Source of the DNA: Arcobacter sp. FWKO B
GTDB lineage: Bacteria > Campylobacterota > Campylobacteria > Campylobacterales > Arcobacteraceae
Direction of reading: 5' to 3'
DNA: 64,000 nt
Assembly: GCF_014844135.1 (NCBI RefSeq)
Contig: NZ_CP041403.1
Coordinates: 186,001 to 250,000, forward strand
Shown: in pieces, positions 2,258-62,328 of the stretch
How positions within the stretch are numbered: the first letter of the stretch is position 1
Layout: each line of letters starts with the position of its first letter
Notes under the pieces: generated by a model
Databases searched by the model: none
What the model was told of the DNA's origin: nothing
The model's input: the letters and a program-made list of their open reading frames with translations, nothing else
Translations under genes and position numbers: made by a program

Positions 2258-2282
2258 AGATAAGCTCTTTTAGCTTATCTTT
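2256..2282. terminator. Bidirectional hairpin between exonuclease and adhesin genes
   Basis: A perfect 11-bp inverted repeat (AAAGATAAGCT / AGCTTATCTTT) with a 5-base loop lies between the convergent genes. It overlaps both stop codons, so it probably terminates both transcripts. Confidence 0.75.
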
Positions 2283-5200
2283 ATACTATATTATCGTTAA
2301 TATCAGATTGAACTTTTACGATAACCGTAGGATCAGCACTATTAGTATAAATATCAAACCCAGCATCGCTACCTTGACCAGCTTCTTTAGTCCAAATATT
2401 TCCATTTTCGTTTTTAAAATATACACTATCCTTATTATCCCCAGTTATTTTTAGCATATTATTTTCATCTGTCATCCCAACAATATCTTCTAGTTTTATA
2501 TCTAACAATTGATTTGAAGTTGCATCTGTTAACAAATCTATTTCTTCTACATTTTTAATTATAGTTTCAAGTGTAGAAAAATTTATATTTTGATTTTTTG
2601 TTAATATAAGCGTATCATAACCTTCTCCACCATCAATATAAGAAGTTTGAGCATCAAATACAAACTTATCATTCCCTTCTTCACCAAACAATAAGTCTTT
2701 ACCACCTTCACTAATTATTGTATCATTTCCACTTCCACCATATATAATATTATTTCCACTTCCACTATATATAACATCATCTCCACTACCAGCCCTAACT
2801 AGATTATTTCCTTCACCTGTATATATCTTGTCATCCCCATCAAAACCATATATACGATTATCGCTATTTGTGCCATGTATTGTATCAACATTGTCACTAC
2901 CCTCAATAATACCTTTTTCGGTGTTAGTTTTCGCCAAAAGATGCAGTTCAGCAAGTGTTATGTTTGATTTTGAAGCCGATAAGCCTTCTATGTCTGTTGC
3001 TGTTATTTTGACTGTATTTATGATACTCAAGTCAATGCCACTATTTTCAAATCTAACCGTACCAAGTAGCTCATTTAATTTCATATTATCAAGTGTACCG
3101 CCATTTAGTGATGTTATTGTAATCATAGAAGACGGGAGCAGTATCCCAAGAAATCCAGGATTATTGACTATATTAATCTTCATTCCCAATTCATTTGCTA
3201 GATTATTGGATGCTGTTAAATTATAAAAACCAATAGACGACAAAGATTTGGCTTCAATTTGAACACTAGTAATATTATTGTTTGCATCATAAGCATTAAA
3301 AGTTCGGTTTGTGCTTAAATCTATTAAATTAATTATATTAAAACCTAACAATCCTAATAAATTATGACTATTGTTTATATCAACTTGCGGAGCCACATTA
3401 CCTTCAAGTGGCACAAATGCATTAGTTTGTGCTTCTACTGTAGTAGAATCTATTGAGACAGCATAATTTAAACCATCGCTATTATCATTAATCTCTGTTG
3501 CTTTAGCTACAATATTCAATGTAAATTCACTTGTTCCGCTAGGTACATTCATTTTTAATGTGTCACTAATAGTAGTTGCTCCATTTGGAGCAACTACATC
3601 CCAAGAACCGTTACCATTATCTATAAGTGTATATTTACTACTTGAAATGGTTGCGCCAATTGGAACCCCAATAATTTGCACGGTTAAATTTTCGCTACCA
3701 TCTATGTCAGTCAAAGATGCTTCAACATTAACATTATATACATTTCCTAAGATATTATTATTTCCATCAGTCACTGCCTCAGTAAATACAATTTGATTGA
3801 TTAAGTAATCATCACCTTCACCTCGTGCAGAGAATCTAATTTCATCAAATGCTTTATTGGTTGATGTCTTAAATGTAAAAGGTCCATCAATTTTATCTGT
3901 ACCACCAGAGTGATTGATAGATTCTATCAAGGTACCATCTTTATAAAAAGATATTACAGCTGTTTCTTTGGAGTTTTTCCATGCAAATTTAACATCTACT
4001 GCGGACATATTAGTTGTAAATTTTATAACTATAACTTCAGATGCTTTTGTTGTGGCATCATATTGTATTTCCGTACTATCTCCTGGATTAAGACCACTAC
4101 CAGAAGTGCTAGCCGCAACACCAAATCCATCATGCATCGTACCAGTTACAATAGATATATTTGATACAGCCCCATTGCTAGCGTATGCCTCAATACTAAA
4201 TAAGTCATTTGATTGAGCAACATTAGTGTGGTCTATCATTCCAGAACTAATGTCTGCTTCTATACTCACAATAGGTGCATCGGCTACAGCCGTAATATTA
4301 ATTTCTGTAGTATAGCTATCAATACTCCAACCTTTACCATCATATACCCTGTATGTAAAACTACTATCTTGGTCTGTATTGTCGTTAGGAATAAACACCA
4401 ATTTGCCAGATTCGATATCACTAGCACTAACAACTGCACCAGCAACCAGTGTAATTCCATTTAAGCTTAATTGACCACTTTCTGGTAAGTTAATAATCTT
4501 AATACTATGTAATGCATCACCATCAGCATCATGGTAATTACCAAAATTTGATATTCGCACTACTACTTGAGTATCTTCATCTAGCGTAATAGCTTCACCG
4601 TTTGTTGATGTTGGAACCACATTATATCCAGCATTATTTTGAATACCATTCAAATCAATAGATATTACATTTTCTACACTGTCTCCATCTCTGTCTGTTA
4701 TAGTGTATTTAAACTCTTCACTTAAAGATTCATTTATTTTCATTGTATCCCTAGTATCTCTGCTAACCGTATATTTATAGCTACCGTCACCATTTACCTC
4801 AAGTATTCCGTATTGACCTTGAATAGTATTTGTGATTGCATCCAATCCATCCCATGCTATAGCATTACTTTCAGATGGACCATCTGCACCAAATATATCA
4901 TCAGTCAAAATAATCTTTCCTTCAACTGTTGGTAAGTCATCAGTTGATAAAACTTGTGCATATAAACTATATGAATTTGCCAGAGTTTCGGTTGTGTATA
5001 TTTTTTCCACAAGATTGCCGCTGTTGTCTAGGAATCCAGCTATTTTAAACTCAAAAACTCTATTGTCTATAGTGAATGTTTGAATATCATTCATATTTGT
5101 AATGGTTATAATATCATCATTATCTGGATGCGTAACACTACTATTTGTATTTGGTGTTTCATTGTGATCAAGCTTAATAACTCCAGTTATCTCATGCGTG

Positions 5201-8200
5201 ACGCCATCTATAATAATATTAAATTTGACTTCCAAATCTGCACTAGTTAAAATAGGGCTATTATTATATACTGTATAGTTATTGTGTGTAAAAGTACCAA
5301 GGTTAATCAATGAATCAATCTCTACACCATTGGTTTGTCTAAGACTTTCATTGTCCTCAAAAGTATAGCCAGAGTGTTTACCTGCTTCTACAGGATTACC
5401 CCAATATATATAGTCATCATATGAATCAGAATCATTATTTACACCAATTACACTACCCGTAGTAGTTTTAGTATTTATCCAACCAGCCCTGAAGCTATCT
5501 ACAAAAACTTCACTAACAGGTACAGATACACTATGACTGGATGCACTATGATTTGGCATGTCATCTTCAATAGATATTTGTATGTCTCCAGTAGCAATAA
5601 ATCCACTATTATCTGTAACTTTTACACCAATATCAAAATTCAATATATCTTTAATGCTATTTAGAGGATGATCCATAGGACTCAAAAGCTTAACAGAATA
5701 TTCACCATTATCATCAATAGTGATTTTTATCACTTCTTCATTGTTTGCACCTACAGTACCAAGTAAAGTATTTGTATCGCTACCAATCCACTCTATTGGC
5801 AAACCATTAGCCGATAACACTCCATTTGTAGGTGCTAGTAATGTGTAAACACTACTTTGTTCATCAAGTTCCAAATTAGAAACATCCACTGTACCTACAA
5901 ATAATGTATTATCCATACCTCCTGCAGGAGTATTCATTCCAACCTCAGAAACATATGCATTTGTTGTTGATATATCATTATCTAGTATTGTTGCTATTGA
6001 AGTAACGCCATCAATTGTCAGACTAAAAGTTTCTGTTTGTTCAGCTACCTTATCATCAATAGTAGGAACTTTCACGCTGAAATTATTTACACCAGCAGGT
6101 ACATTTATAGTGCCTGTGGTTGAATTATAAGTTACTCCATTGGTAAATTCAAGTGCATCTGTAAAATCTTCACCTAAAACTGCACTTCCAGAAGCCAGTA
6201 TTAAAGCTAGTGTCAATCCATTTGGATTAACAAGAGACACTTCAAATTCTGCTTTTTCACCCTCTACAAGTATTATATTTTGAATAGCAATAGATGCTAC
6301 ACCATAAGTTTTACTAGCAGTTATCTCACCAACATTTCCTGCACTATCTGTTGCATAAACTTTTGCATCGATTGTATTATCACTATCAGCTGCTAAATCA
6401 CTTCCTGCTACATCTGCACTCCAAGAACCATCTTGATTTAGTGTTGTTGTATAGGTATTACCATTGATTACAAGCTCTAGTGTATCACCTTCATTAAATT
6501 CACCACTTACACTACCTGTTATAGTGATTGTATCTTGTGCTTCTTGAGAGTTAATTACATTATCACTTGTTACATCATCTATAATTAATGTTGTTGTTTG
6601 GCTATCTGGTGAAGTTATATCTACATTAAATCCAACTTCATTACTTGAAGGGGTAGAGTTACCTGCTGGGTCGGTTATAATTACACTAATAGCATAATCA
6701 CCTTCTTCATTAAATAAATCTTGTGGCAATGTTACATCTGCTACACCGTTAGTTACTTCATCAGGTGTAATTATATGTTCAAACTCTTGCGTAGTTCCAT
6801 CTGGGTTTGTGATTGTAAAAGTAATAGTATCTCCAGCTTCTACACCATCAGGGATAGTAACTTGTGTTTGTACACCATCACTTAATTCATCACTACTTAT
6901 ATATCCATCGTTTGCTTCAGGAATTGTTAAAACTGGAGCTGTTGTTGATATAGTTGTATCTACACCATAAGTTTTACTAGCAGTTATCTCACCAACATTT
7001 CCTGCACTATCTGTTGCATAAACTTTTGCATCGATTGTATTATCACTATCAGCTGCTAAATCACTTCCTGCTACATCTGCACTCCAAGAACCATCTTGAT
7101 TTAGTGTTGTTGTATAGGTATTACCATTGATTACAAGCTCTAGTGTATCACCTTCATTAAATTCACCACTTACACTACCTGTTATAGTGATTGTATCTTG
7201 TGCTTCTTGAGAGTTAATTACATTATCACTTGTTACATCATCTATAATTAATGTTGTTGTTTGGCTATCTGGTGAAGTTATATCTACATTAAATCCAACT
7301 TCATTACTTGAAGGGGTAGAGTTACCTGCTGGGTCGGTTATAATTACACTAATAGCATAATCACCTTCTTCATTAAATAAATCTTGTGGCAATGTTACAT
7401 CTGCTACACCGTTAGTTACTTCATCAGGTGTAATTATATGTTCAAACTCTTGCGTAGTTCCATCTGGGTTTGTGATTGTAAAAGTAATAGTATCTCCAGC
7501 TTCTACACCATCAGGGATAGTAACTTGTGTTTGTACACCATCACTTAATTCATCACTACTTATATATCCATCGTTTGCTTCAGGAATTGTTAAAACTGGA
7601 GCTGTTGTTGATATAGTTGTATCTACACCATAAGTTTTACTAGCAGTTATCTCACCAACATTTCCTGCACTATCTGTTGCATAAACTTTTGCATCGATTG
7701 TATTATCACTATCAGCTGCTAAATCACTTCCTGCTACATCTGCACTCCAAGAACCATCTTGATTTAGTGTTGTTGTATAGGTATTACCATTGATTACAAG
7801 CTCTAGTGTATCACCTTCATTAAATTCACCACTTACACTACCTGTTATAGTGATTGTATCTTGTGCTTCTTGAGAGTTAATTACATTATCACTTGTTACA
7901 TCATCTATAATTAATGTTGTTGTTTGGCTATCTGGTGAAGTTATATCTACATTAAATCCAACTTCATTACTTGAAGGGGTAGAGTTACCTGCTGGGTCGG
8001 TTATAATTACACTAATAGCATAATCACCTTCTTCATTAAATAAATCTTGTGGCAATGTTACATCTGCTACACCGTTAGTTACTTCATCAGGTGTAATTAT
8101 ATGTTCAAACTCTTGCGTAGTTCCATCTGGGTTTGTGATTGTAAAAGTAATAGTATCTCCAGCTTCTACACCATCAGGGATAGTAACTTGTGTTTGTACA

Positions 8201-11200
8201 CCATCACTTAATTCATCACTACTTATATATCCATCGTTTGCTTCAGGAATTGTTAAAACTGGAGCTGTTGTTGATATAGTTGTATCTACACCATAAGTTT
8301 TACTAGCAGTTATCTCACCAACATTTCCTGCACTATCTGTTGCATAAACTTTTGCATCGATTGTATTATCACTATCAGCTGCTAAATCACTTCCTGCTAC
8401 ATCTGCACTCCAAGAACCATCTTGATTTAGTGTTGTTGTATAGGTATTACCATTGATTACAAGCTCTAGTGTATCACCTTCATTAAATTCACCACTTACA
8501 CTACCTGTTATAGTGATTGTATCTTGTGCTTCTTGAGAGTTAATTACATTATCACTTGTTACATCATCTATAATTAATGTTGTTGTTTGGCTATCTGGTG
8601 AAGTTATATCTACATTAAATCCAACTTCATTACTTGAAGGGGTAGAGTTACCTGCTGGGTCGGTTATAATTACACTAATAGCATAATCACCTTCTTCATT
8701 AAATAAATCTTGTGGCAATGTTACATCTGCTACACCGTTAGTTACTTCATCAGGTGTAATTATATGTTCAAACTCTTGCGTAGTTCCATCTGGGTTTGTG
8801 ATTGTAAAAGTAATAGTATCTCCAGCTTCTACACCATCAGGGATAGTAACTTGTGTTTGTACACCATCACTTAATTCATCACTACTTATATATCCATCGT
8901 TTGCTTCAGGAATTGTTAAAACTGGAGCTGTTGTTGATATAGTTGTATCTACACCATAAGTTTTACTAGCAGTTATCTCACCAACATTTCCTGCACTATC
9001 TGTTGCATAAACTTTTGCATCGATTGTATTATCACTATCAGCTGCTAAATCACTTCCTGCTACATCTGCACTCCAAGAACCATCTTGATTTAGTGTTGTT
9101 GTATAGGTATTACCATTGATTACAAGCTCTAGTGTATCACCTTCATTAAATTCACCACTTACACTACCTGTTATAGTGATTGTATCTTGTGCTTCTTGAG
9201 AGTTAATTACATTATCACTTGTTACATCATCTATAATTAATGTTGTTGTTTGGCTATCTGGTGAAGTTATATCTACATTAAATCCAACTTCATTACTTGA
9301 AGGGGTAGAGTTACCTGCTGGGTCGGTTATAATTACACTAATAGCATAATCACCTTCTTCATTAAATAAATCTTGTGGCAATGTTACATCTGCTACACCG
9401 TTAGTTACTTCATCAGGTGTAATTATATGTTCAAACTCTTGCGTAGTTCCATCTGGGTTTGTGATTGTAAAAGTAATAGTATCTCCAGCTTCTACACCAT
9501 CAGGGATAGTAACTTGTGTTTGTACACCATCACTTAATTCATCACTACTTATATATCCATCGTTTGCTTCAGGAATTGTTAAAACTGGAGCTGTTGTTGA
9601 TATAGTTGTATCTACACCATAAGTTTTACTAGCAGTTATCTCACCAACATTTCCTGCACTATCTGTTGCATAAACTTTTGCATCGATTGTATTATCACTA
9701 TCAGCTGCTAAATCACTTCCTGCTACATCTGCACTCCAAGAACCATCTTGATTTAGTGTTGTTGTATAGGTATTACCATTGATTACAAGCTCTAGTGTAT
9801 CACCTTCATTAAATTCACCACTTACACTACCTGTTATAGTGATTGTATCTTGTGCTTCTTGAGAGTTAATTACATTATCACTTGTTACATCATCTATAAT
9901 TAATGTTGTTGTTTGGCTATCTGGTGAAGTTATATCTACATTAAATCCAACTTCATTACTTGAAGGGGTAGAGTTACCTGCTGGGTCGGTTATAATTACA
10001 CTAATAGCATAATCACCTTCTTCATTAAATAAATCTTGTGGCAATGTTACATCTGCTACACCGTTAGTTACTTCATCAGGTGTAATTATATGTTCAAACT
10101 CTTGCGTAGTTCCATCTGGGTTTGTGATTGTAAAAGTAATAGTATCTCCAGCTTCTACACCATCAGGGATAGTAACTTGTGTTTGTACACCATCACTTAA
10201 TTCATCACTACTTATATATCCATCGTTTGCTTCAGGAATTGTTAAAACTGGAGCTGTTGTTGATATAGTTGTATCTACACCATAAGTTTTACTAGCAGTT
10301 ATCTCACCAACATTTCCTGCACTATCTGTTGCATAAACTTTTGCATCGATTGTATTATCACTATCAGCTGCTAAATCACTTCCTGCTACATCTGCACTCC
10401 AAGAACCATCTTGATTTAGTGTTGTTGTATAGGTATTACCATTGATTACAAGCTCTAGTGTATCACCTTCATTAAATTCACCACTTACGCTACCTGTTAT
10501 AGTGATTGTAGTTTGTGCTTCTTGAGAGTTAATTGTATTATCACTTGTTACATCATCTATAATTAGCGTTGTTGTTTGGCTATCTGGTGAAGTTATATCT
10601 ACATTAAATCCAACCTCATTACTTGAAGGGGTAGAGTTACCTGCTGGGTCGGTTATAATTACACTAATAGCATAATCACCTTCTTCATTAAATAAATCTT
10701 GTGGCAATGTTACATCTGCTACATTATTAGTTACTTCATCAGGTGTAATTATATGTTCAAGCTCTTGTGTAGTTCCATCTGGGTTTGTGATTGTAAAAGT
10801 AATAGTATCTCCAGCTTCTACACCATCAGGGATAGTAACTTGTGTTTGTACACCATCACTTAATTCATCACTACTGATATATCCATCGTTTGCTTCAGGA
10901 ATTGTTAGAACTGGTGCTGTTGTTGCTATAGTTGTATCTACCGTTATATTTCCAGATGCCACTGCAGTATTGGCTCCATCAGTAGCAGTCACCACAACAA
11001 CTGTAGTTCCATCAGATAATATAGAAACTGTATTATCTGGCAATACCCAAGTCCCATCACCATTGTTTATAGCAATATAATCAATATTATTTATACTTAC
11101 GGTTATTGTTGCTGTACTTGAGTTTACTGTGCCAGTAATTTCAGGTGTATTATCATTTGTTAAATATATATCATTTACCCCAACAACTAAAGTATTAGTC

Positions 11201-11751
11201 TGTGTAGTCACCAATGAATCTAGAACAATACCTGTTATACCAAGTGAATCATCTGTAGCAAACAAAGGATTGGAATACGAAATTCCAAGACCATTGCTTC
11301 TTACAGAACTTACAACATTAACACTTTCTCCATTTCTTACATCAAAGGTACCACCAGAACCTCCCTCTGTACTCAAAATCTCTTCGCCAGCAGCTGTCTC
11401 TTCATCTAAGATAGAATCATCTTTATTATTTTCTTGCAATGTTTTTGATAAATCATTAATTGCAACTTTTAATCCTTCTTGTGAAAATGCCAGCTCCTCA
11501 TTTCCATACCCACTACTTATCAAAGAGGTATCAAATAACTGTGCATTAACACCTACAATTTCAACGATTCTACCGTCAATTAATAATACATTTAGACTAT
11601 TAAAATTATTATTTGATTGTCCACCAAAGATAGTGTCATTTACATTGATACTATCTTCTATATCAAGCTTTGAAACAGTACCTTGTTTATCCATCACATA
11701 GAATTCACCTTCAATAAACTGAACCTTACCGATTTGTGTTTCCATTTTCAA
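2281..11751 (-). CDS. Giant RTX adhesin (LapA/BapA type) with retention module and LapG cleavage site
   Basis: A 3156-residue surface adhesin, predicted type I secretion substrate. Residues 1-110 look like the N-terminal retention module that plugs the TolC channel. T-A-A-G at 119-122 matches the known LapG protease site of LapA-family adhesins. The next region has Ig-like repeats, then seven 221-residue units, a Calx-beta-like domain (SIAIQNIILVEGEKAEFEVS), further VCBS/Ig-like domains, calcium-binding RTX nonapeptides (GFDGDDKIY, GSGNDTIIS, GEEGNDKFVFD) near residue 2950-3030, and a C-terminal type I secretion signal. The adhesin, regulator, TolC, LapD, LapG, adaptor and exporter genes follow one another on the same strand. 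It has its own promoter. Release would be by LapG when c-di-GMP is low. The ligand is unknown. Codon use looks like the neighbouring genes. Confidence 0.93.
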   Translation of the reverse strand: MKMETQIGKVQFIEGEFYVMDKQGTVSKLDIEDSINVNDTIFGGQSNNNFNSLNVLLIDGRIVEIVGVNAQLFDTSLISSGYGNEELAFSQEGLKVAINDLSKTLQENNKDDSILDEETAAGEEILSTEGGSGGTFDVRNGESVNVVSSVRSNGLGISYSNPLFATDDSLGITGIVLDSLVTTQTNTLVVGVNDIYLTNDNTPEITGTVNSSTATITVSINNIDYIAINNGDGTWVLPDNTVSILSDGTTVVVVTATDGANTAVASGNITVDTTIATTAPVLTIPEANDGYISSDELSDGVQTQVTIPDGVEAGDTITFTITNPDGTTQELEHIITPDEVTNNVADVTLPQDLFNEEGDYAISVIITDPAGNSTPSSNEVGFNVDITSPDSQTTTLIIDDVTSDNTINSQEAQTTITITGSVSGEFNEGDTLELVINGNTYTTTLNQDGSWSADVAGSDLAADSDNTIDAKVYATDSAGNVGEITASKTYGVDTTISTTAPVLTIPEANDGYISSDELSDGVQTQVTIPDGVEAGDTITFTITNPDGTTQEFEHIITPDEVTNGVADVTLPQDLFNEEGDYAISVIITDPAGNSTPSSNEVGFNVDITSPDSQTTTLIIDDVTSDNVINSQEAQDTITITGSVSGEFNEGDTLELVINGNTYTTTLNQDGSWSADVAGSDLAADSDNTIDAKVYATDSAGNVGEITASKTYGVDTTISTTAPVLTIPEANDGYISSDELSDGVQTQVTIPDGVEAGDTITFTITNPDGTTQEFEHIITPDEVTNGVADVTLPQDLFNEEGDYAISVIITDPAGNSTPSSNEVGFNVDITSPDSQTTTLIIDDVTSDNVINSQEAQDTITITGSVSGEFNEGDTLELVINGNTYTTTLNQDGSWSADVAGSDLAADSDNTIDAKVYATDSAGNVGEITASKTYGVDTTISTTAPVLTIPEANDGYISSDELSDGVQTQVTIPDGVEAGDTITFTITNPDGTTQEFEHIITPDEVTNGVADVTLPQDLFNEEGDYAISVIITDPAGNSTPSSNEVGFNVDITSPDSQTTTLIIDDVTSDNVINSQEAQDTITITGSVSGEFNEGDTLELVINGNTYTTTLNQDGSWSADVAGSDLAADSDNTIDAKVYATDSAGNVGEITASKTYGVDTTISTTAPVLTIPEANDGYISSDELSDGVQTQVTIPDGVEAGDTITFTITNPDGTTQEFEHIITPDEVTNGVADVTLPQDLFNEEGDYAISVIITDPAGNSTPSSNEVGFNVDITSPDSQTTTLIIDDVTSDNVINSQEAQDTITITGSVSGEFNEGDTLELVINGNTYTTTLNQDGSWSADVAGSDLAADSDNTIDAKVYATDSAGNVGEITASKTYGVDTTISTTAPVLTIPEANDGYISSDELSDGVQTQVTIPDGVEAGDTITFTITNPDGTTQEFEHIITPDEVTNGVADVTLPQDLFNEEGDYAISVIITDPAGNSTPSSNEVGFNVDITSPDSQTTTLIIDDVTSDNVINSQEAQDTITITGSVSGEFNEGDTLELVINGNTYTTTLNQDGSWSADVAGSDLAADSDNTIDAKVYATDSAGNVGEITASKTYGVDTTISTTAPVLTIPEANDGYISSDELSDGVQTQVTIPDGVEAGDTITFTITNPDGTTQEFEHIITPDEVTNGVADVTLPQDLFNEEGDYAISVIITDPAGNSTPSSNEVGFNVDITSPDSQTTTLIIDDVTSDNVINSQEAQDTITITGSVSGEFNEGDTLELVINGNTYTTTLNQDGSWSADVAGSDLAADSDNTIDAKVYATDSAGNVGEITASKTYGVASIAIQNIILVEGEKAEFEVSLVNPNGLTLALILASGSAVLGEDFTDALEFTNGVTYNSTTGTINVPAGVNNFSVKVPTIDDKVAEQTETFSLTIDGVTSIATILDNDISTTNAYVSEVGMNTPAGGMDNTLFVGTVDVSNLELDEQSSVYTLLAPTNGVLSANGLPIEWIGSDTNTLLGTVGANNEEVIKITIDDNGEYSVKLLSPMDHPLNSIKDILNFDIGVKVTDNSGFIATGDIQISIEDDMPNHSASSHSVSVPVSEVFVDSFRAGWINTKTTTGSVIGVNNDSDSYDDYIYWGNPVEAGKHSGYTFEDNESLRQTNGVEIDSLINLGTFTHNNYTVYNNSPILTSADLEVKFNIIIDGVTHEITGVIKLDHNETPNTNSSVTHPDNDDIITITNMNDIQTFTIDNRVFEFKIAGFLDNSGNLVEKIYTTETLANSYSLYAQVLSTDDLPTVEGKIILTDDIFGADGPSESNAIAWDGLDAITNTIQGQYGILEVNGDGSYKYTVSRDTRDTMKINESLSEEFKYTITDRDGDSVENVISIDLNGIQNNAGYNVVPTSTNGEAITLDEDTQVVVRISNFGNYHDADGDALHSIKIINLPESGQLSLNGITLVAGAVVSASDIESGKLVFIPNDNTDQDSSFTYRVYDGKGWSIDSYTTEINITAVADAPIVSIEADISSGMIDHTNVAQSNDLFSIEAYASNGAVSNISIVTGTMHDGFGVAASTSGSGLNPGDSTEIQYDATTKASEVIVIKFTTNMSAVDVKFAWKNSKETAVISFYKDGTLIESINHSGGTDKIDGPFTFKTSTNKAFDEIRFSARGEGDDYLINQIVFTEAVTDGNNNILGNVYNVNVEASLTDIDGSENLTVQIIGVPIGATISSSKYTLIDNGNGSWDVVAPNGATTISDTLKMNVPSGTSEFTLNIVAKATEINDNSDGLNYAVSIDSTTVEAQTNAFVPLEGNVAPQVDINNSHNLLGLLGFNIINLIDLSTNRTFNAYDANNNITSVQIEAKSLSSIGFYNLTASNNLANELGMKINIVNNPGFLGILLPSSMITITSLNGGTLDNMKLNELLGTVRFENSGIDLSIINTVKITATDIEGLSASKSNITLAELHLLAKTNTEKGIIEGSDNVDTIHGTNSDNRIYGFDGDDKIYTGEGNNLVRAGSGDDVIYSGSGNNIIYGGSGNDTIISEGGKDLLFGEEGNDKFVFDAQTSYIDGGEGYDTLILTKNQNINFSTLETIIKNVEEIDLLTDATSNQLLDIKLEDIVGMTDENNMLKITGDNKDSVYFKNENGNIWTKEAGQGSDAGFDIYTNSADPTVIVKVQSDINDNIV
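2655..2903 (-). repeat. RTX calcium-binding nonapeptide block near adhesin C-terminus
   Basis: Roughly eight tandem GGxGxDxxx-like nonapeptides are read on the minus strand, including YGFDGDDKI, RAGSGDDVI, YGGSGNDTI and FGEEGNDKF. Such parallel beta-rolls fold on binding calcium outside the cell, a hallmark of type I secreted proteins. Confidence 0.88.
6299..10939 (-). repeat. Seven tandem 663-bp units coding 221-residue Ig-like repeats
   Basis: The landmark acaccataag recurs at 6299, 6962, 7625, 8288, 8951, 9614 and 10277, giving an exact 663-bp period. Each unit codes two Ig-like domains, one starting TTAPVLTIPEANDG and one starting SPDSQTTTLIID. The six units nearest the adhesin C-terminus look identical base for base. 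The N-terminal-most unit (10277-10939) differs at about 17 positions. This is a recent amplification kept in frame. Confidence 0.97.
11386..11397 (-). other. Predicted LapG cleavage site TAAG in adhesin (residues 119-122)
   Basis: The codons ACA GCT GCT GGC on the minus strand give T-A-A-G. LapA-family adhesins are cut by LapG between the two alanines of such a motif about 110 residues from the N-terminus. It follows an acidic stretch and precedes a Gly-rich linker, so it is likely exposed. Confidence 0.8.
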
Positions 11752-54059: not shown

Positions 54060-54083
54060 AAAGCTATAAATTCTTATAGCTTT
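54060..54083. terminator. Bidirectional terminator between ftsZ and moeA
   Basis: A perfect 10-bp inverted repeat (AAAGCTATAA / TTATAGCTTT) with a 4-base loop separates the convergent genes; the moeA stop codon is in the stem. Confidence 0.7.
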
Positions 54084-55279
54084 ATGAAAGATATCTCTTC
54101 TCCACTATCATAGCATTTATTTGGCTCCAAAATTGCTAGTACACTATTATTTAACAAATTTGTTAGAATAGCACTTGTACCACTTTTTTTCCCATTTGTA
54201 TCTATCTCATATCTATTACTTTTAGTGTATGTTAAATTTGAAGCAACAAAAACTGTTTTTTGTGTTGTATTTTTGTATGGAGTTTTAGCTGTGGCACTTA
54301 ATATTTCCAAAGACTCATAACTACCACGAAATTTAAAAATTATAGGCAAACAATATAGTAAAAATGTAACTGTACTACTATATGCAAAGCCAGGAAGAGA
54401 ACATATAAATTTATTACCAAGTTGTGCTACAATAATATGCATCCCAGGTTTTATATCAACACCTTTAAAGACAATATCAGCACTAAGTTCACCAATTACA
54501 ATATCTTTTACAAAATCATAATCACCTACACTTACTCCACCAGTTGTTACAACTATATCACAACTGCTAAGCCCATTTTTTATAGCTTGTGATATTGAGT
54601 CTTTATTATCCTCAATAAGTCCAAGCTGTCTAGTATGACAATTGTATTTTTTTGCTATTGCTTCAAGTGTAAGATGATTTGAGCTTCTTATTTGTGACTC
54701 ATTTGTTTGAACTTCTCCTATATCTAGTATTTCGGTTCCAGTTGAACATATTCCTACAATAGGTGAATTGAAAACTTCTACAAAAACAATATTTAAACTT
54801 GCCATTACACCAATATGAGCAAAATCTATTTTAGTGCCCTTTGGTATAAGTACTTCATTTTCTTTATAATTCTCCCCTACTCCCATCACAGCAAAGCCAA
54901 TAGGAACAGGTTTTTGTATATAAATTTTATTATCTTTTATTTCAATATTTTCAATAGGAACAAGAGTATCACTCCCTTTTGGCATAAGAGAACCAGTAAA
55001 GGTTTTAATACAATTATTTTGAGCTATTTGTGTCTGTACAACAACACCAGCTGGTGAGATATCCACAAGTGAAAACTCATTGTTTGTTTCATTTAAAGAG
55101 AGGTTAATAGCATAGCCATCCATAGCTGCTGTTGGAAATGCTGGAGAATTTTTCAAAGCTTTAATATCATGAGCTAGGATCTTTCCCAAACTATCCATAA
55201 GATAAACTTTTGAAGTTGTAGTTTCGACTTTTAAATTTATAATTTTTTCTAATGATTCTTTGTAGGTTAATTTTGACAT
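54074..55279 (-). CDS. moeA: Molybdopterin molybdenumtransferase MoeA
   Basis: Inserts molybdate into adenylated molybdopterin, for nitrate reductase, formate dehydrogenase and similar enzymes. N-terminal PTAAMDGYAI, then ISPAGVVVQTQIAQNNCIKTFTGS, GVGENYKENEVLIPKG, TGTEILDIGEVQTNESQIRSSN and the MPT-binding TTGGVSVGDYDFV, with GIKPGMH-like DIKPGMHIIVAQLG. The 401 residues match the family. No other molybdopterin gene is in the window. It follows the NifA-like regulator by about 50 bases. Confidence 0.95.
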   Translation of the reverse strand: MSKLTYKESLEKIINLKVETTTSKVYLMDSLGKILAHDIKALKNSPAFPTAAMDGYAINLSLNETNNEFSLVDISPAGVVVQTQIAQNNCIKTFTGSLMPKGSDTLVPIENIEIKDNKIYIQKPVPIGFAVMGVGENYKENEVLIPKGTKIDFAHIGVMASLNIVFVEVFNSPIVGICSTGTEILDIGEVQTNESQIRSSNHLTLEAIAKKYNCHTRQLGLIEDNKDSISQAIKNGLSSCDIVVTTGGVSVGDYDFVKDIVIGELSADIVFKGVDIKPGMHIIVAQLGNKFICSLPGFAYSSTVTFLLYCLPIIFKFRGSYESLEILSATAKTPYKNTTQKTVFVASNLTYTKSNRYEIDTNGKKSGTSAILTNLLNNSVLAILEPNKCYDSGEEISFIKL

Positions 55280-55329: not shown

Positions 55330-56853
55330 TTACATAAGATTATATTTCTTGATTTTATATCCAATTTGACGCAATGTTATGCCAAGTTTTTTAGCAGCTA
55401 TAGTTTGATTGTAGTCATTTGATTTTAAAGCATGCGATATTGCTTCAATCTCTAACTCTTCTAATGTTTTATTTGATATTAGAATATTATTATACTCTTT
55501 TTGCTTATTTTCATCTCCAATCATACCAGTTATCAATAAAACATCACTTTTTGTTACAATATCATCATCAGCAAAATAAACAAGTTTCTCAATGCTACAT
55601 TCAAGCTCTTTAATATTACCTTTGTACAGATAATTTTTCAAACTTTCTAATGCTTCATCACTAAAACTAATTGTTTTTGAATACATATTATTAAACTTAT
55701 TTAACATTGTATTTATGAAATAAAGTATATCATCACCCCTTTGTCTAAGTGGAGGAATTTCAATAGTTACCAAATTTAAAAGGGTATATAACTCGCCGTT
55801 AAATGTTCCATTTAAAACACTTTGTTCTAAGTCTTTAGATGTGGTGGCTATTATTCTTACATTATATTTTGAGGAAGGAAGATATGAACTTTTGTATTCA
55901 TTAATCTTCAAAATATCAACTAATTTTTTTTGTATAAACAGAGGTAACTTATCAACATTTTCAATAATCAAACTTCCTCCATCAGCCAATTCTAACTTAC
56001 CCATCTTAAAATCTTTATATGCTTTGTTTGCTAATTTCTTATTTCCAAATAATTCAGTTTCAATTTCATTCTCATTTAATAAATTTGCTTTGAGTATTAC
56101 AAATGGTTTATTCTGCCTATGACTCAATTTATGAATCATTGTTGCTATAGATAATTGTTCTGTTCCAACTTCACCTTTTATAAGCACTCTTATATCATTT
56201 GGTGCTATTTTGATAATATTATTTTTTAAATTTTTCATACTATCACTTACAAAAGTACAATTTTGCATATCATAATAGCTGATATCAAACTCTTTTTCAT
56301 AATATTGTTTTAACTCTTGAAACTTTCCAACCTTATAGTCTTTTTCCAAGTTTGAAAAAATTGCATATCTAAAGAGTGTAGTTACATATTCTAAAAATGT
56401 TATTTTTTGATTTATATTTTCGTTTTGTGTATCATACAAAGAAATAGAAAAAATACCTATTACTTCTGTTTTATGAATAAGGGGGATTGCTATATAGACA
56501 ATATTTGACATATCTATGTTTTTAGATTTATCAAAAAAGACTATATCATTGTAATTATTATCTATTACTATTCTTTCTTGACTTTTTTGAGCCAATGTTC
56601 TAGCTTCTTTGAACTCTTTTGCTTGAGGTTCTATATCTTGATCTGAAGATGCAAAAAGCTTTAAATCGTCATCATCAGGTATGTATATTTCACACTTTTT
56701 GAATTTTAAATTCTCTTTTAAAATCCTAAGTGATTTAGAGATAGAATCTTGATAGTTGTTCAAATCAAGCAATCTTAAAGCTACTTCATAAAATACAAAA
56801 AATTCTTTTGAATTTTCCAATTCATTTGAAATCTGAACATTTTTTTCTATCAA
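55330..56853 (-). CDS. NifA-like regulator: GAF, degenerate AAA+ domain, Fis-type HTH
   Basis: A 507-residue relative of sigma-54 activators. Residues about 20-170 are a GAF sensor. About 200-440 align with the AAA+ motor, but Walker A is GEVGTEQL (Lys lost), GAFTGA is replaced by LANKAY, Walker B reads GGSLIIENV (acidic pair lost) and the Arg finger region is NGELYTLL. ELFG, LELADGGS, ATTSKDLE and PPLRQR remain. The C-terminal Fis-like helix-turn-helix is intact (AISHALKSNDYNQTIAAKKLGI). It should bind DNA and a ligand but not hydrolyse ATP or remodel sigma-54 polymerase. The regulated genes are unknown; moeA follows it. Confidence 0.85.
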   Translation of the reverse strand: MIEKNVQISNELENSKEFFVFYEVALRLLDLNNYQDSISKSLRILKENLKFKKCEIYIPDDDDLKLFASSDQDIEPQAKEFKEARTLAQKSQERIVIDNNYNDIVFFDKSKNIDMSNIVYIAIPLIHKTEVIGIFSISLYDTQNENINQKITFLEYVTTLFRYAIFSNLEKDYKVGKFQELKQYYEKEFDISYYDMQNCTFVSDSMKNLKNNIIKIAPNDIRVLIKGEVGTEQLSIATMIHKLSHRQNKPFVILKANLLNENEIETELFGNKKLANKAYKDFKMGKLELADGGSLIIENVDKLPLFIQKKLVDILKINEYKSSYLPSSKYNVRIIATTSKDLEQSVLNGTFNGELYTLLNLVTIEIPPLRQRGDDILYFINTMLNKFNNMYSKTISFSDEALESLKNYLYKGNIKELECSIEKLVYFADDDIVTKSDVLLITGMIGDENKQKEYNNILISNKTLEELEIEAISHALKSNDYNQTIAAKKLGITLRQIGYKIKKYNLM

Positions 56854-56913
56854 AAAGCATCTCCTTTATTTTGATAGTTTTATTATACACAAAAAATAAA
56901 ATATTACCAAAGT

Positions 56914-56940
56914 AAGATTGTATATTTATTATACAATCTT
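56914..56940. terminator. Perfect 11-bp palindrome between the NifA-like and the charged-protein genes
   Basis: AAGATTGTATA-TTTAT-TATACAATCTT. It could end the minus-strand small gene that stops at 57004, or act as an operator about 60 bp before the regulator start. No U-tract decides it. Confidence 0.5.
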
Positions 56941-57003
56941 AACCTCTAAATTGACTAACAAGACTCTAATATCTTCACATTATTGTCAGAGGATTGTATT
57001 TTA

Positions 57004-57339
57004 TTACATCATACCCCTATGAGGAGCATTACCTTTTGGATTTTGGCGTTCTTGAAATTTATTCATATTTTTCTCTTTCATTTGCTCTTTATACTCTCTT
57101 TTTTCTTGTATCTGTTCTTTTTTTTGCTCTTTTAGCTGTAGCTTTTCTTGTTTTTTTTCTTCAAATCTCTCTTGATTTTGTTGTTGTTTTTGTTCTCTTA
57201 ATTCTTGATTATAACCACTTCTATCTTTTGGTTGAATATCAGAATTAAATCTATTTTGTTTTAATTCAGATGTTGAACTATCCACAGCATACAAATAACA
57301 AAGACCTATACCAAATAGTAAAACTGCTATTTTTTTCAT
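57004..57339 (-). CDS. Small exported Gln/Glu/Lys-rich protein
   Basis: A 111-residue protein that starts at the ATG at 57339, behind AGGAG, with a signal peptide (MKKIAVLLFGIGLCYLYA). The mature part is highly charged and coiled-coil-like: ELREQKQQQNQERFEEKK, then KEQIQEKREYKEQMKEK, ending NAPHRGMM. An upstream in-frame start would add an unsupported extension. No family is recognised; the helical, Gln/Glu-rich form recalls Spy/CpxP-like periplasmic proteins, which is only a resemblance. It is divergent from the TonB receptor. Confidence 0.6.
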   Translation of the reverse strand: MKKIAVLLFGIGLCYLYAVDSSTSELKQNRFNSDIQPKDRSGYNQELREQKQQQNQERFEEKKQEKLQLKEQKKEQIQEKREYKEQMKEKNMNKFQERQNPKGNAPHRGMM

Positions 57340-57441
57340 ATCATAACTCCTAGTATTAATATAACAACATTTTATAACTTTAACCTTCAATAATACTTAA
57401 ATTAACAAAAAAGCAAATTTCTTAAATAAAAAAACTAATAT

Positions 57442-57502: not shown

Positions 57503-59582
57503 ATGAAGTGCTCGAAGAATAAAACATTAATATGTTTCTTAATTGCAAGTAGTATAGCATATGCAAATGCTAATGAAAATTTAGGCTTAATTACAGTTGA
57601 ATCATCTACTATTGATGATAAAAATATCTCGAAAATAAATGAAGTGTCTAGTACTTTTATACTTACTAGCAAAGATATAGAAAAACTAAACCCTAAAAGC
57701 GTAGCAGATATATTGAATACTATATACCTGGATTAACACATTCAATAACTGGTACAGACACATACAAAGCTCACATTAGAGGAATAGAAAATCAAATGTA
57801 TATGGGTGAAAAACCAGGAGTTGCTGTTGTAATCGATGGTGTTCCAGTACAAGAAACAGCTGGAAAAATAAATATTGATTTGGATAATATAGAATCAATA
57901 AAAGTTATCAAAGGTGGTGCTTCATTCTTGTATGGTAATGATGCAATAGCTGGAGCTATTATAATCACAACTAAAAGACCCAAAGGACAAAATATTTCGC
58001 AAATAGAGACGGAAATAGGAAGTTTTAGTTCAAAAAGATTTTTAGCCTCCACTAATCAAAGTTTTGAAAAGTCTGCATTACAGCTCCAAGGTAGCACAAG
58101 AACTAGTGATGGTTATTGGGAAGATGCATATGTTAGAGAAAAATCAATTAATGGAAAATATCAATATTATATAAATGATTTAAGTGATATTACTTTTGGA
58201 TTAGATTTAACAAATCGAAAAACAGGTGATGGCAATAGTGTATCTGGAACTACTAATGCTGAAACAAATCCAACAAGTGCAGGAGAATATTCATATGGAG
58301 GCTACTATAATAGTGACCTTATAAAAACTTTTATTACTTATTCAGAAGAAATTAATCAAAGTTCACACTATATGCTAAGATTTCATAAATATATTGACGA
58401 CAAAACATCAAAGACTGGTCGTACCGCATATAATAATATTGAAAAATGGGATCAAAATGGCATCAAGGGTGAGTACTACAAATCATTTAATAAATATGCC
58501 ATCATGGTAGGCTTAGATTTACAAAAGAACACAACTGATGAAACACAATATTTAGCTTCAGACAATAGCTTAAGATCGCAATATGATACCGATGAAAGGA
58601 TATATGCATTATATGGGGAGTTAAATAATCAAATCACCGATAGCTTAACTTCAGTAATCAACTTAAGATATGATAATTTAAAATATAAATATAATGACCA
58701 GTTAGATAATTCAAAAAATGTTAATCCATCATACAATACAACATCATTTAGAGCTGGATTAAATTATGATTTCACAGAAAACAATTCATTATTCACAAGT
58801 ATTTCTACTGGTTTTAGAGCACCAACAGTATCACAAATAAGTAAAAACCAAACTGGTATTGCATTAGGACATGATGTACCTACATCATTAAAAACAGAAA
58901 CTACATACAATTATGAGATAGGTATACGAGGTTTACAGTCTAATGTAAATTATGAAGCTTCAATTTATCAATTAGATAGAAAAGATTATATTGGAAGACA
59001 AGGAGGAAGCTATTCAAGTAGTACGGGGTGGAGTAAAACTTCAAATATTGATGAGGATGAATACTATTTTAATCTTGGTGATATGAGAAGCAGAGGATTT
59101 GAACTTGCACTAAATGGTGACATAATGAGCAACTTATCATTTAATACTGCATATACATATCTTGATGCAATATTTAAAAATATACACTTACACAAAGAAC
59201 TGGTTCTAATACATATAGACAAGTTGATTTATCAGGAAATACTGTTCCTAGAACATCAAAACATACTGTAAATTTAATTTTAAATTACAACCCTACTACA
59301 AAATTCACTATTTCACCAGAACTTCTAGTAAAAAGTAGTTATTATGCAGATGAAGCTAATCAATACAAACAAAAAGGTTATAAAATTGTAAATTTAAGGA
59401 TGAATTATAAAGTATCCGAATCTCTAGAGTTTTTTGCAACTATAGAAAACCTATTAGATAAAAAATATTATCAATTTGTCAATATGAGCTCTACAGACAC
59501 AAGAAAGACTATGGAAAATGATGCAACAATTAGGGTTGCTCCTCCTAGAGCATATTATGCTGGCTTAAGATATAAATTTTAA
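57503..59582 (+). pseudogene. TonB-dependent outer membrane receptor, two frameshifts
   Basis: An outer-membrane receptor of about 690 residues when repaired. Part 1 (57503-57736) has a signal peptide (MKCSKNKTLICFLIASSIAYA) and the start of the plug domain (TSKDIEKLNPKSVADILN). Near 57722-57731 an extra TA in CTATATACC shifts frame; the expected IPGLTHSITG continues in the next frame. Part 2 (57796-59271) has the plug (VVIDGVPVQ, KVIKGGASFLYGNDAIAGAI) and barrel. Near 59170 a run of five A's looks one base short; the barrel resumes as YTLTQRTGSNTYRQVDLSG and ends YYAGLRYKF. Both could be sequencing errors or real decay. The substrate is unknown. AAAGG precedes the start. It heads the polyferredoxin operon. 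Confidence 0.82.
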
Positions 59583-59592
59583 GTAATAGCCA

Positions 59593-62328
59593 ATGGTAAA
59601 TTTTATCAAAAGAGACAATAGCGATATTTTTAGCCGTCCAATTTTGAGGTTTATTTTTAAGAATCCCAAGTTTTTATTTAGTATTAGAATTATTGTTTTA
59701 GCTATATTTTTATATGCCGTATATTATGGTTTTTCACATCCTACAAAAGAAAACATCTTCACAGGTGCTGTTTTTTGGGGATTGTTTTGGGCTTTATTTA
59801 TGGTCTCTACTCTTCCCACATTTGGGCGTATCTTTTGTGGTATTTGCCCCCATGGATTTATAGGTAAATATATCACAAAATTTGGACTCAAAAGAAATAT
59901 ACCTAAATGGCTACAAAACAGATATATAGGGATATTTTTACTTGTAGTTGGATGGTGGGGAATTTATTATACTTTTCCTGGGTTTTGGAAGTCACCACTT
60001 GCTACTGCTGGTATGTTTGGTGGAATGACAGCCATAGCTTTTTTGTTTTATTATCTATACAAAGATATGAGTTATTGCAAATATATATGCCCTATTGGGA
60101 GTATGTGTAGAGCTTATGATAAACTTTCTTTTACAAAACTAGAAACCTATACGGATACTTGCAAGGATTGTCGAACATTTGAGTGTGCAAAAGCTTGTCC
60201 TTATGATTTGAAACCTTTTACATTTGCCAAGAAAAACTCTATGGATGATTGTACTTTATGTATGGAGTGTGCGAATAGTTGCGAGGCTGTTAAGTTTAAG
60301 TTTACCAAACCATCACAGAAACTTTTTGATAAATTCAAAACTATAAATGCTGAAATATGGGTATATATCCTTATATTGGCAAGTATTCCTGTATCTATGA
60401 CATTTGCTCATGGACTTGATAGAAGCAATATATCTGATACTATGATATGGAACCAAACTGCACAATTTTTTGGTATGAGTAGCTATAGTGGTGGTTTTGC
60501 TTTTGTTTATGCTATTGTTTTTACAGTTTTTTTTACGCTATTTGGTATATATCTAGCATCAAAAGCTCTTAAAAAAGATTTTTCAACTACATTTTCAACC
60601 CTTGGATATGCGTTTGCACCGCTATTTATTCTTAGCTCTCTTGGGCATACACTAGAAACTTTTTTCATCAAGGATTATCAAACTATCATCCAAGGTTTTT
60701 CTCAAGCATTTGGATTTGGTATAGCAGATGTATCACCACTTGCAAAAAGAGGAGATGCATGGCTTAGCTATCTTGGACTTTTGAAATGGCTTGGCATAAT
60801 ATGGACTTTGATTCTTTTGTACATAAGACTAAAGCTTATTGATAGCTCAAAGATTAGAAAAGTATTTGCATATATTTTTGCTTCATTACTGGTGATATTT
60901 TTTATTGGTATCAATATGTATAGAGGTTATATATTTGAAACATATGGTGCAAAAACAAGCTCTCATTCACACTCTCATGGTGGAACAAAAGAAGAACTTT
61001 TCCAAAGTGTACCTTTCAAAGATGCCACACTCTTACAAGATGGCAAAGGCAAAACAAGCTGTAGTGTATGCGGTATGAATCTACCACAATATTACAAAAC
61101 AAACCATAGTGCAAAACTTGATGGGAAAATAAAACAATACTGTTCTATTCATTGCTTATGCGAGGATTTGTTAATCAATAAACTACCATTATCAGATATA
61201 CAAGTTGTTGATGTCAAATCCCTTAAGTTTTTAGATGTAAGAAATGCCTTTTATGTGGTAAAAAGCACTAAACCAGCCACTATGAGCATGGTAAGTAAAT
61301 ATGCTTTTGAAGACAAAGAAGAGGCTTTGGTATTTATACAAGAAAATGGTGGTGAGATAGTGGACTTTGATAGTGCATTGAAGCTAGCATTGGAAGATTT
61401 TATCCCTAAAAAAAGAGGCAAACCAAATGGTAATACTTCAATAACAATCAAAGACAATCAAGCTATATTTTTCACACCAAATAATCCACAAAGCAAAGGT
61501 GGCGGAAGACCAGCACATTCTCATGGAGGTGGGAATAAAAATGAGATACCAACCAAGAAGCTTTGGCTTGTATTTGGTGATTTGGATATACAAAATATAG
61601 CAAATACTGAAATACTTGGTTTTTACTACGATAAAAACAGATCAAAACAAGAGCTAATATTAAATCCAAAAGAAGCAAACTATAGTTTTGAAATACCAAA
61701 TAATGGCTATTATAATATCTATGCTGTTAGTGAAATTATAAGCAATTATACACTCTATCATAAAGTTGCAAAGTTTGAATATCTTCACGGTTCACATGCA
61801 AACAAAGATAAATTTGGTGATATTGATAAGGAAATACTCATCTCAAATGAAGTCAAATTTGATTTGGTTAGACTTAAAAGTGATGAAGAAGATAACTTTT
61901 TTTACAAAAACTATATGGGTGAAGAGCTTGTTTTCAAAGCTTTATTTGACAATCAACCTTTAGCAAATGCTGATATAAACATCAAGTTAAATACTGGATG
62001 GAGTAAAAATATCAAAACTGACCAACAAGGCATAGCAAAATTTCACATCATAAAAGACTATTTTCCAAAATGGAATGAGTTTGATAAAAGATACAAAGAA
62101 GATTTGCTTATTGCTATGACTTATGAACAAGATAGCCAAAATGAAAACTATTTTGTAGAAAAATATATTCTAACATACCCTATATCATTTTATCCTGCAA
62201 CAAGTGATTATAAATCATACGCTTATGGGCTTTTTATAGGGTTTATTGTTTTATTGTTTGGAATATTTTTGGTTTACAAATCAAGAACACTTAAAAAAGA
62301 TTATCAAAATGAGGTTGTAAATGATTGA
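59593..62328 (+). CDS. Membrane polyferredoxin fused to a NosL-like domain and a DUF4198-like domain
   Basis: A 911-residue inner-membrane protein. Residues about 20-440 are NapH/NosR-like: membrane helices with FCGICPHGFI and YCKYICPIGSMC, then two 4Fe-4S motifs (CKDCRTFECAKACP, 190-202; CTLCMECANSC, 220-230), and further helices. About 455-463 is a HSHSHGG segment. About 480-600 is NosL-like: CSVCGM at 490-495, DG at 510-511, YCSIHCLC at 517-523 and the LDVRNAFYVV and VSKYAFEDKEEALVFIQENGG blocks. About 637-647 is PAHSHGGG. About 650-865 resembles DUF4198 (ANADINIKLNTGW, TDQQGIAKFH). A last helix is at about 875-900. NosL binds Cu(I) in the nitrous oxide reductase system, but no nosZ is nearby. 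The role is unknown. Confidence 0.85.
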   Translation: MVNFIKRDNSDIFSRPILRFIFKNPKFLFSIRIIVLAIFLYAVYYGFSHPTKENIFTGAVFWGLFWALFMVSTLPTFGRIFCGICPHGFIGKYITKFGLKRNIPKWLQNRYIGIFLLVVGWWGIYYTFPGFWKSPLATAGMFGGMTAIAFLFYYLYKDMSYCKYICPIGSMCRAYDKLSFTKLETYTDTCKDCRTFECAKACPYDLKPFTFAKKNSMDDCTLCMECANSCEAVKFKFTKPSQKLFDKFKTINAEIWVYILILASIPVSMTFAHGLDRSNISDTMIWNQTAQFFGMSSYSGGFAFVYAIVFTVFFTLFGIYLASKALKKDFSTTFSTLGYAFAPLFILSSLGHTLETFFIKDYQTIIQGFSQAFGFGIADVSPLAKRGDAWLSYLGLLKWLGIIWTLILLYIRLKLIDSSKIRKVFAYIFASLLVIFFIGINMYRGYIFETYGAKTSSHSHSHGGTKEELFQSVPFKDATLLQDGKGKTSCSVCGMNLPQYYKTNHSAKLDGKIKQYCSIHCLCEDLLINKLPLSDIQVVDVKSLKFLDVRNAFYVVKSTKPATMSMVSKYAFEDKEEALVFIQENGGEIVDFDSALKLALEDFIPKKRGKPNGNTSITIKDNQAIFFTPNNPQSKGGGRPAHSHGGGNKNEIPTKKLWLVFGDLDIQNIANTEILGFYYDKNRSKQELILNPKEANYSFEIPNNGYYNIYAVSEIISNYTLYHKVAKFEYLHGSHANKDKFGDIDKEILISNEVKFDLVRLKSDEEDNFFYKNYMGEELVFKALFDNQPLANADINIKLNTGWSKNIKTDQQGIAKFHIIKDYFPKWNEFDKRYKEDLLIAMTYEQDSQNENYFVEKYILTYPISFYPATSDYKSYAYGLFIGFIVLLFGIFLVYKSRTLKKDYQNEVVND

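Follow-up and report, generated by a model that had tools for sequence, protein, structure and literature searches.

A NifA-like regulator with a degenerate AAA+ motor beside moeA in Arcobacter sp. FWKO B and its relatives

Beside moeA in Arcobacter sp. FWKO B lies a gene whose product combines a NifA-type DNA-binding domain with an AAA+ domain in which the motor motifs are replaced, and the question that this locus raises is what such a protein could still do. A preliminary description held that it cannot be a normal sigma-54 activator, and offered three roles, i.e., a repressor, an antagonist of a true activator, or a sigma-70 regulator. The gene was analysed within a window of 64,000 nucleotides (the whole stretch of DNA under study), in the complete 2.24 Mb genome (G000) and in three further genomes of the genus, i.e., G101 and the fragmented draft assemblies G102 and G103, which are 95% and 86% complete, respectively. 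It is reasonably likely that the protein is a former NifA turned sigma-54-independent DNA-binding regulator.

Domain layout and state of the motor motifs

The regulator gene (Table 1) carries an AGGAG sequence 7 nt upstream of its start codon, and its product matches the Pfam families Sigma54_activat (PF00158, E 2.6e-32, above the curated cut-off), AAA_lid_14 and HTH_8, which together with a weak GAF match gives the GAF-AAA+-Fis HTH order of NifA. The GAF match reaches 17 bits, which is under the Pfam cut-offs; the earlier statement that the GAF domain and the Fis-type HTH are both intact is thus right for the HTH and generous for the GAF domain. The closest solved-structure relatives of the regulator are NifA and NtrC-type proteins, while single-sequence structure prediction returned a pLDDT of 35 and no usable model. 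An inverted repeat near the gene (Table 1) was rejected as the regulator's operator, its counterparts in G101 and G103 running into T runs.

Table 1. Features of the regulator locus and related loci (window positions unless a locus is named)
Feature	Position	Strand	Description
moeA	54074..55279	(-)	next gene downstream of the regulator; Pfam and synteny
Regulator gene, motor-dead NifA-like	55330..56853	(-)	507 aa, TTG start
Fis-type HTH	55336..55467	(-)	residues 463-506; NifA-type, core unchanged
AAA+ lid	55540..55746	(-)	residues 370-438; Sensor II Arg to Lys
AAA+ core	55747..56247	(-)	residues 203-369; 38% identity to intact NifA
Both Arg fingers lost	55780..55800	(-)	residues 352-358; REDLYYR to NGELYTL
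Degenerate Walker B	55957..55971	(-)	residues 295-299; LFLDE to LIIEN
Lost loop 1	56017..56034	(-)	residues 274-279; GAFTDA/GAFTGA to LANKAY
Degenerate Walker A	56152..56175	(-)	residues 227-234; GETGTGKE to GEVGTEQL
GAF-like sensor domain	56359..56748	(-)	residues 36-165; about 30% identity to NifA GAF, weak Pfam match
Extended -10 TGTGTATAAT	56882..56891	(-)	likely sigma-70-type promoter of the regulator by sequence comparison; kept in G101 and G103
Inverted repeat	56913..56941	(.)	most likely terminator of small gene 57004-57390
HTH-less NifA, G000	L056 17940-19298 (G000:C1:101940-103298)		nif cluster
HTH-less NifA, G101	L059 (G101:C77)		nif cluster
HTH and response-regulator-like genes, G101	L061 8789-9568		between moeA and ftsZ
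HTH and response-regulator-like genes, G103	L063 10973-11755		between moeA and ftsZ

The motor motifs were read in an alignment of the regulator with intact family NifAs. Substitutions affect Walker A, loop 1, Walker B and the Arg fingers, the last within a wider stretch that changes from FREDLYYRL to FNGELYTLL, and Sensor I carries S for N; the set that serves ATP hydrolysis (Walker A, Walker B, Sensor I and Arg fingers) is therefore lacking. The preliminary description had reported the motor motifs as gone and cited 55957-56175, which corresponds to the span from Walker A to Walker B; this stands, except that one of the Walker B acids (LDE to IEN) is a conservative D to E exchange. Likewise, the reported loss of the Walker A lysine is accurate for G000 (Lys to Gln) and peculiar to it, as the orthologues of G101 (GEIGTEKL) and G102 (GEVGTEKL) keep the lysine and also an acidic ED pair. 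Common to the orthologues are the loss of the P-loop glycine preceding the lysine (Glu in every orthologue read), of loop 1 (gone in all four genus genomes) and of the Arg fingers (gone in the three that are readable at that site), while the structural residues of the AAA+ shell are invariant. With both the catalytic motifs and the GAFTGA/GAFTDA loop that contacts sigma-54 replaced, the latter in all orthologues, the view that this is not a normal sigma-54 activator is borne out.

The lysine and acidic pair kept in G101 and G102 would fit a protein whose DNA binding is switched by a bound but unhydrolysed nucleotide, either ATP or a signalling nucleotide, as reported for Rhodobacter capsulatus NtrC, which is said to need ATP binding rather than hydrolysis (PMC10274813). 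Such a switch is nevertheless unlikely here, given the Glu in place of the P-loop glycine in all orthologues read, the lost Sensor I and Arg fingers, and the Lys to Gln change in G000.

Orthologues, selection and the DNA-binding domain

Degenerate homologues, a search for which had been suggested, were found throughout the genus: all four available genomes carry an orthologue, with identities to the regulator of 72% in G101, 53% in G102 and 73-76% in G103 (first part only). Orthologues this diverged (G101 and G102) share the losses of the P-loop glycine, loop 1 and the Arg fingers, so that neither chance nor a local sequence error accounts for them. The moeA gene adjoins the regulator in each of the four genomes, with ftsA/ftsZ nearby, and the supposed link to moeA is accordingly real as synteny; between the two genes there is also a possible promoter for moeA itself. 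In a search of 399 genomes of the order, no further motor-dead member was found among the fetched matches whose motifs were read, and the moeA slot of other genera holds no NifA remnant. The reading frame of the G103 copy is broken at a run of A (L063, near 13593), which may be real or an assembly error. Between moeA and ftsZ, G101 and G103 carry two further genes, an HTH gene and a small one resembling a response regulator (Table 1), and both are absent from G000 and G102.

The coding pattern of the regulator shows purifying selection. Its dN/dS is about 0.13 between G000 and G101 and 0.25 between G000 and G102, with dS near saturation, while between G101 and G103 it is 0.01-0.04 in the part that precedes the G103 frame break and 0.06 in the part that follows; values range from 0.01 to 0.26 over whole genes and most domains, the lid reaching 0.39 (G101-G102), and the relaxed selection of a pseudogene is not seen. 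Furthermore, dN between G101 and G102 is 0.12 for the HTH versus 0.34-0.51 for GAF, AAA+ and lid, and all 47 HTH residues are identical between G101 and G103, making the HTH the most conserved named domain between G101 and the genomes in which rpoN was not detected. That the gene is a decaying remnant without present function would agree with the many lost motifs, the long branches, the G103 frame break and the faster divergence in G102, yet this is very unlikely for a frame that is open in three genomes over deep divergence, with dN/dS well below 1, with the HTH as the slowest named domain where rpoN was not detected, and with a conserved promoter and neighbour.

The domain order and the HTH core with its recognition segment, GITLRQIGYKIKKY, are shared with the full-length Arcobacteraceae NifAs, whose HTHs are 68-73% identical to that of the regulator, i.e., as alike as the NifA HTHs are among themselves, whereas the AAA+ domain is 38% identical to that of intact NifA, as against 95% identity among the AAA+ domains of the family's intact NifAs. 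The full-length NifAs differ from the regulator in having an intact motor, in occurring in nif-positive genomes and in being accompanied by palindromes upstream of nifH, while the regulator has a dead motor, sits beside moeA and is also present where nif was not found. Since the regulator shares the recognition segment with palindrome-associated NifAs, it probably binds similar DNA.

The nif cluster and the nifH promoter

In the family, two palindromic sites were found upstream of the nifH ATG, one at about -115 (CCC-N8-GGG) and one at about -153 to -170, and no classical TGT-N10-ACA NifA sites were found at enhancer positions. Both palindromes occur in 20 of the 21 family genomes with a canonical NifA HTH. 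Under site matrices trained on the family only, seven of eight genomes of other families with a canonical HTH score at one or both sites, as against none of nine genomes with an HTH-less NifA, and the palindromes are absent from all three genomes of genus g16, whose NifA HTH has diverged; these counts cover related genomes and are not independent events. The nifH upstream regions compared are L066-L089 and L202-L216. The presence of the palindromes thus tracks the NifA HTH across the order, and they are candidate NifA enhancer sites of the Campylobacterota. Upstream of nifH, G000 and G101 retain the -24/-12 element TGGAACACCATTTGCA but neither palindrome, so that a DNA-bound partner at nifH is not supported.

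The sole other bEBP found in G000 belongs to the nif cluster (Table 1); it is a NifA of 452 aa with an intact motor (GETGTGKE, GAFTDA, LDE and Arg fingers) and no HTH. The same truncation is seen in G101, where the next gene begins just past the stop codon, and it is therefore regarded as real. The NifA tree places the motor proteins of G000 and G101 together with the HTH-less NifA of G126, a member of another family (support 98/100), and the nifH tree gives the same grouping with weaker support. HTH-less NifAs of the order occur in families f5, f6 and f20. Genus g39 (family f20) has, in addition to its HTH-less NifA, another NifA-like regulator that is full-length and keeps an intact motor (L142, L144, L146, L148, L150 and L156).

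G000 and G101 consequently hold a complementary pair, one protein with a motor and no HTH and the other with an HTH and no motor, as the sole bEBP-like proteins found. This complementarity first made it attractive to suppose that, in the nif-positive species, the two assemble into mixed oligomers at nif promoters, to which the dead protein contributes DNA binding and the HTH-less NifA the motor. It was dropped as the main reading, and is held to have very little chance of being correct, on the grounds that the motor NifA groups with that of G126, that no motor-dead partner was found beside the HTH-less NifAs of G126, f6 or f20, that the HTH-associated palindromes are missing upstream of nifH in G000 and G101, and that the dead protein persists where the motor was not found. 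A split activator in the nitrogen-fixing species of the genus, acting at promoters other than these, is more doubtful still.

The antagonist role supposes that the regulator represses nif, either by drawing the active NifA into inactive mixed oligomers or by filling its sites. It is consistent with the invariant structural residues of the kept AAA+ shell and with the coexistence with an active NifA in two species, but it has been weakened to the point of being distinctly unlikely: the only active bEBP found in G000 is an HTH-less NifA of another lineage, with which the regulator shares only 40% AAA+ identity, the nifH promoter has no NifA-type palindrome, and the regulator stays conserved even in genomes that yielded neither nif nor the motor.

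Probable sigma-54-independent regulation and candidate targets

The rpoN gene is present in one copy in G000, in one region with the motor NifA and nifH, and is also present in G101. In the draft assemblies of G102 and G103, no rpoN, nifH or motor-intact NifA was detected, and the regulator is still present; as the three genes share one region in G000, their absence may reflect a single missing stretch in each genome, through one event or an assembly gap. Because two members of the genus keep the gene without detected rpoN, nifH or active bEBP, a sigma-54-independent regulator fits best among the three roles originally offered. Action at sigma-70 promoters is suggested by one observation, namely that rpoN was not detected in two species. 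Such a regulator would bind palindromic DNA as a dimer through its HTH, with the GAF domain supplying the signal and the dead AAA+ domain and lid possibly serving as a scaffold for oligomerisation or signal relay rather than as a motor, and it would either repress its targets or directly activate transcription from sigma-70 promoters. Its gene lies far from the nif cluster, and the linkage to nif genes or nif promoter sites that characterizes NifA is not seen; we infer an origin from a full-length NifA ancestor, separate from the present nif cluster with its own HTH-less NifA of another lineage.

There is precedent for bEBP-derived regulators of this kind. Sigma-70 promoters are where TyrR, DhaR, HupR, VpsR and the NtrCs without GAFTGA act (PMC3162934, PMC10274813), and EBP paralogues without sigma-54 interaction are known in organisms without sigma-54 (PMC3162934). 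TyrR, DhaR, HupR and VpsR resemble the regulator in bEBP ancestry, in the lack of a working GAFTGA loop and in the kept HTH; none found in the literature searched is described as derived from NifA, and in the regulator the replacements extend to Walker A, Walker B and the Arg fingers. The NtrCs of Caulobacter and R. capsulatus likewise lack the sigma-54 contact loop and act at sigma-70 promoters, the former being predicted to use ATP (PMC10274813), and have a receiver domain where the regulator has a GAF-like domain. FlgR, whose loop has the GAFTDA form, and CtcC have no DNA-binding domain (PMC3162934), and thereby resemble the other NifA of G000, with its intact motor, missing HTH and GAFTDA loop; the regulator is the reverse, with the HTH kept and the motor lost. 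Sigma-54-independent regulators derived from bEBPs are thus known. What sets this one apart is that it descends from NifA, how much of its motor is gone, and that it persists in genomes without detected rpoN; the open-access literature searched gave no earlier account of a case derived from NifA. It would represent a natural case in which a sigma-54 activator became another type of regulator, its motor dismantled piecewise and its DNA-binding helix fixed, and close relatives with and without detected sigma-54 make the exit of a bEBP from the sigma-54 system directly testable.

As the constant neighbour, moeA would be the first candidate target. PWM scans of the window, the nif regions and the orthologous loci gave nothing clearly above shuffled sequence, no NifA-type palindrome above chance was found near the regulator, moeA, the TonB/metal genes or the nif region, and TCCCW8GGGA shows no genome-wide excess over control in the genus, nearly all of its matches falling inside genes.

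Elsewhere in the window, the TonB receptor gene (57503-59579) is in three reading frames, with breaks near 57724 and 59169-59211; its orthologue is one 730-aa frame in G101, and the G103 copy is split too. At 59593-62328, NosL-like and DUF4198-like parts are joined to a 4Fe-4S membrane protein in a 911-aa fusion, which is followed by a second 4Fe-4S protein, and at 2281-11751 the minus strand has an open frame that is very long, at 3156 aa.
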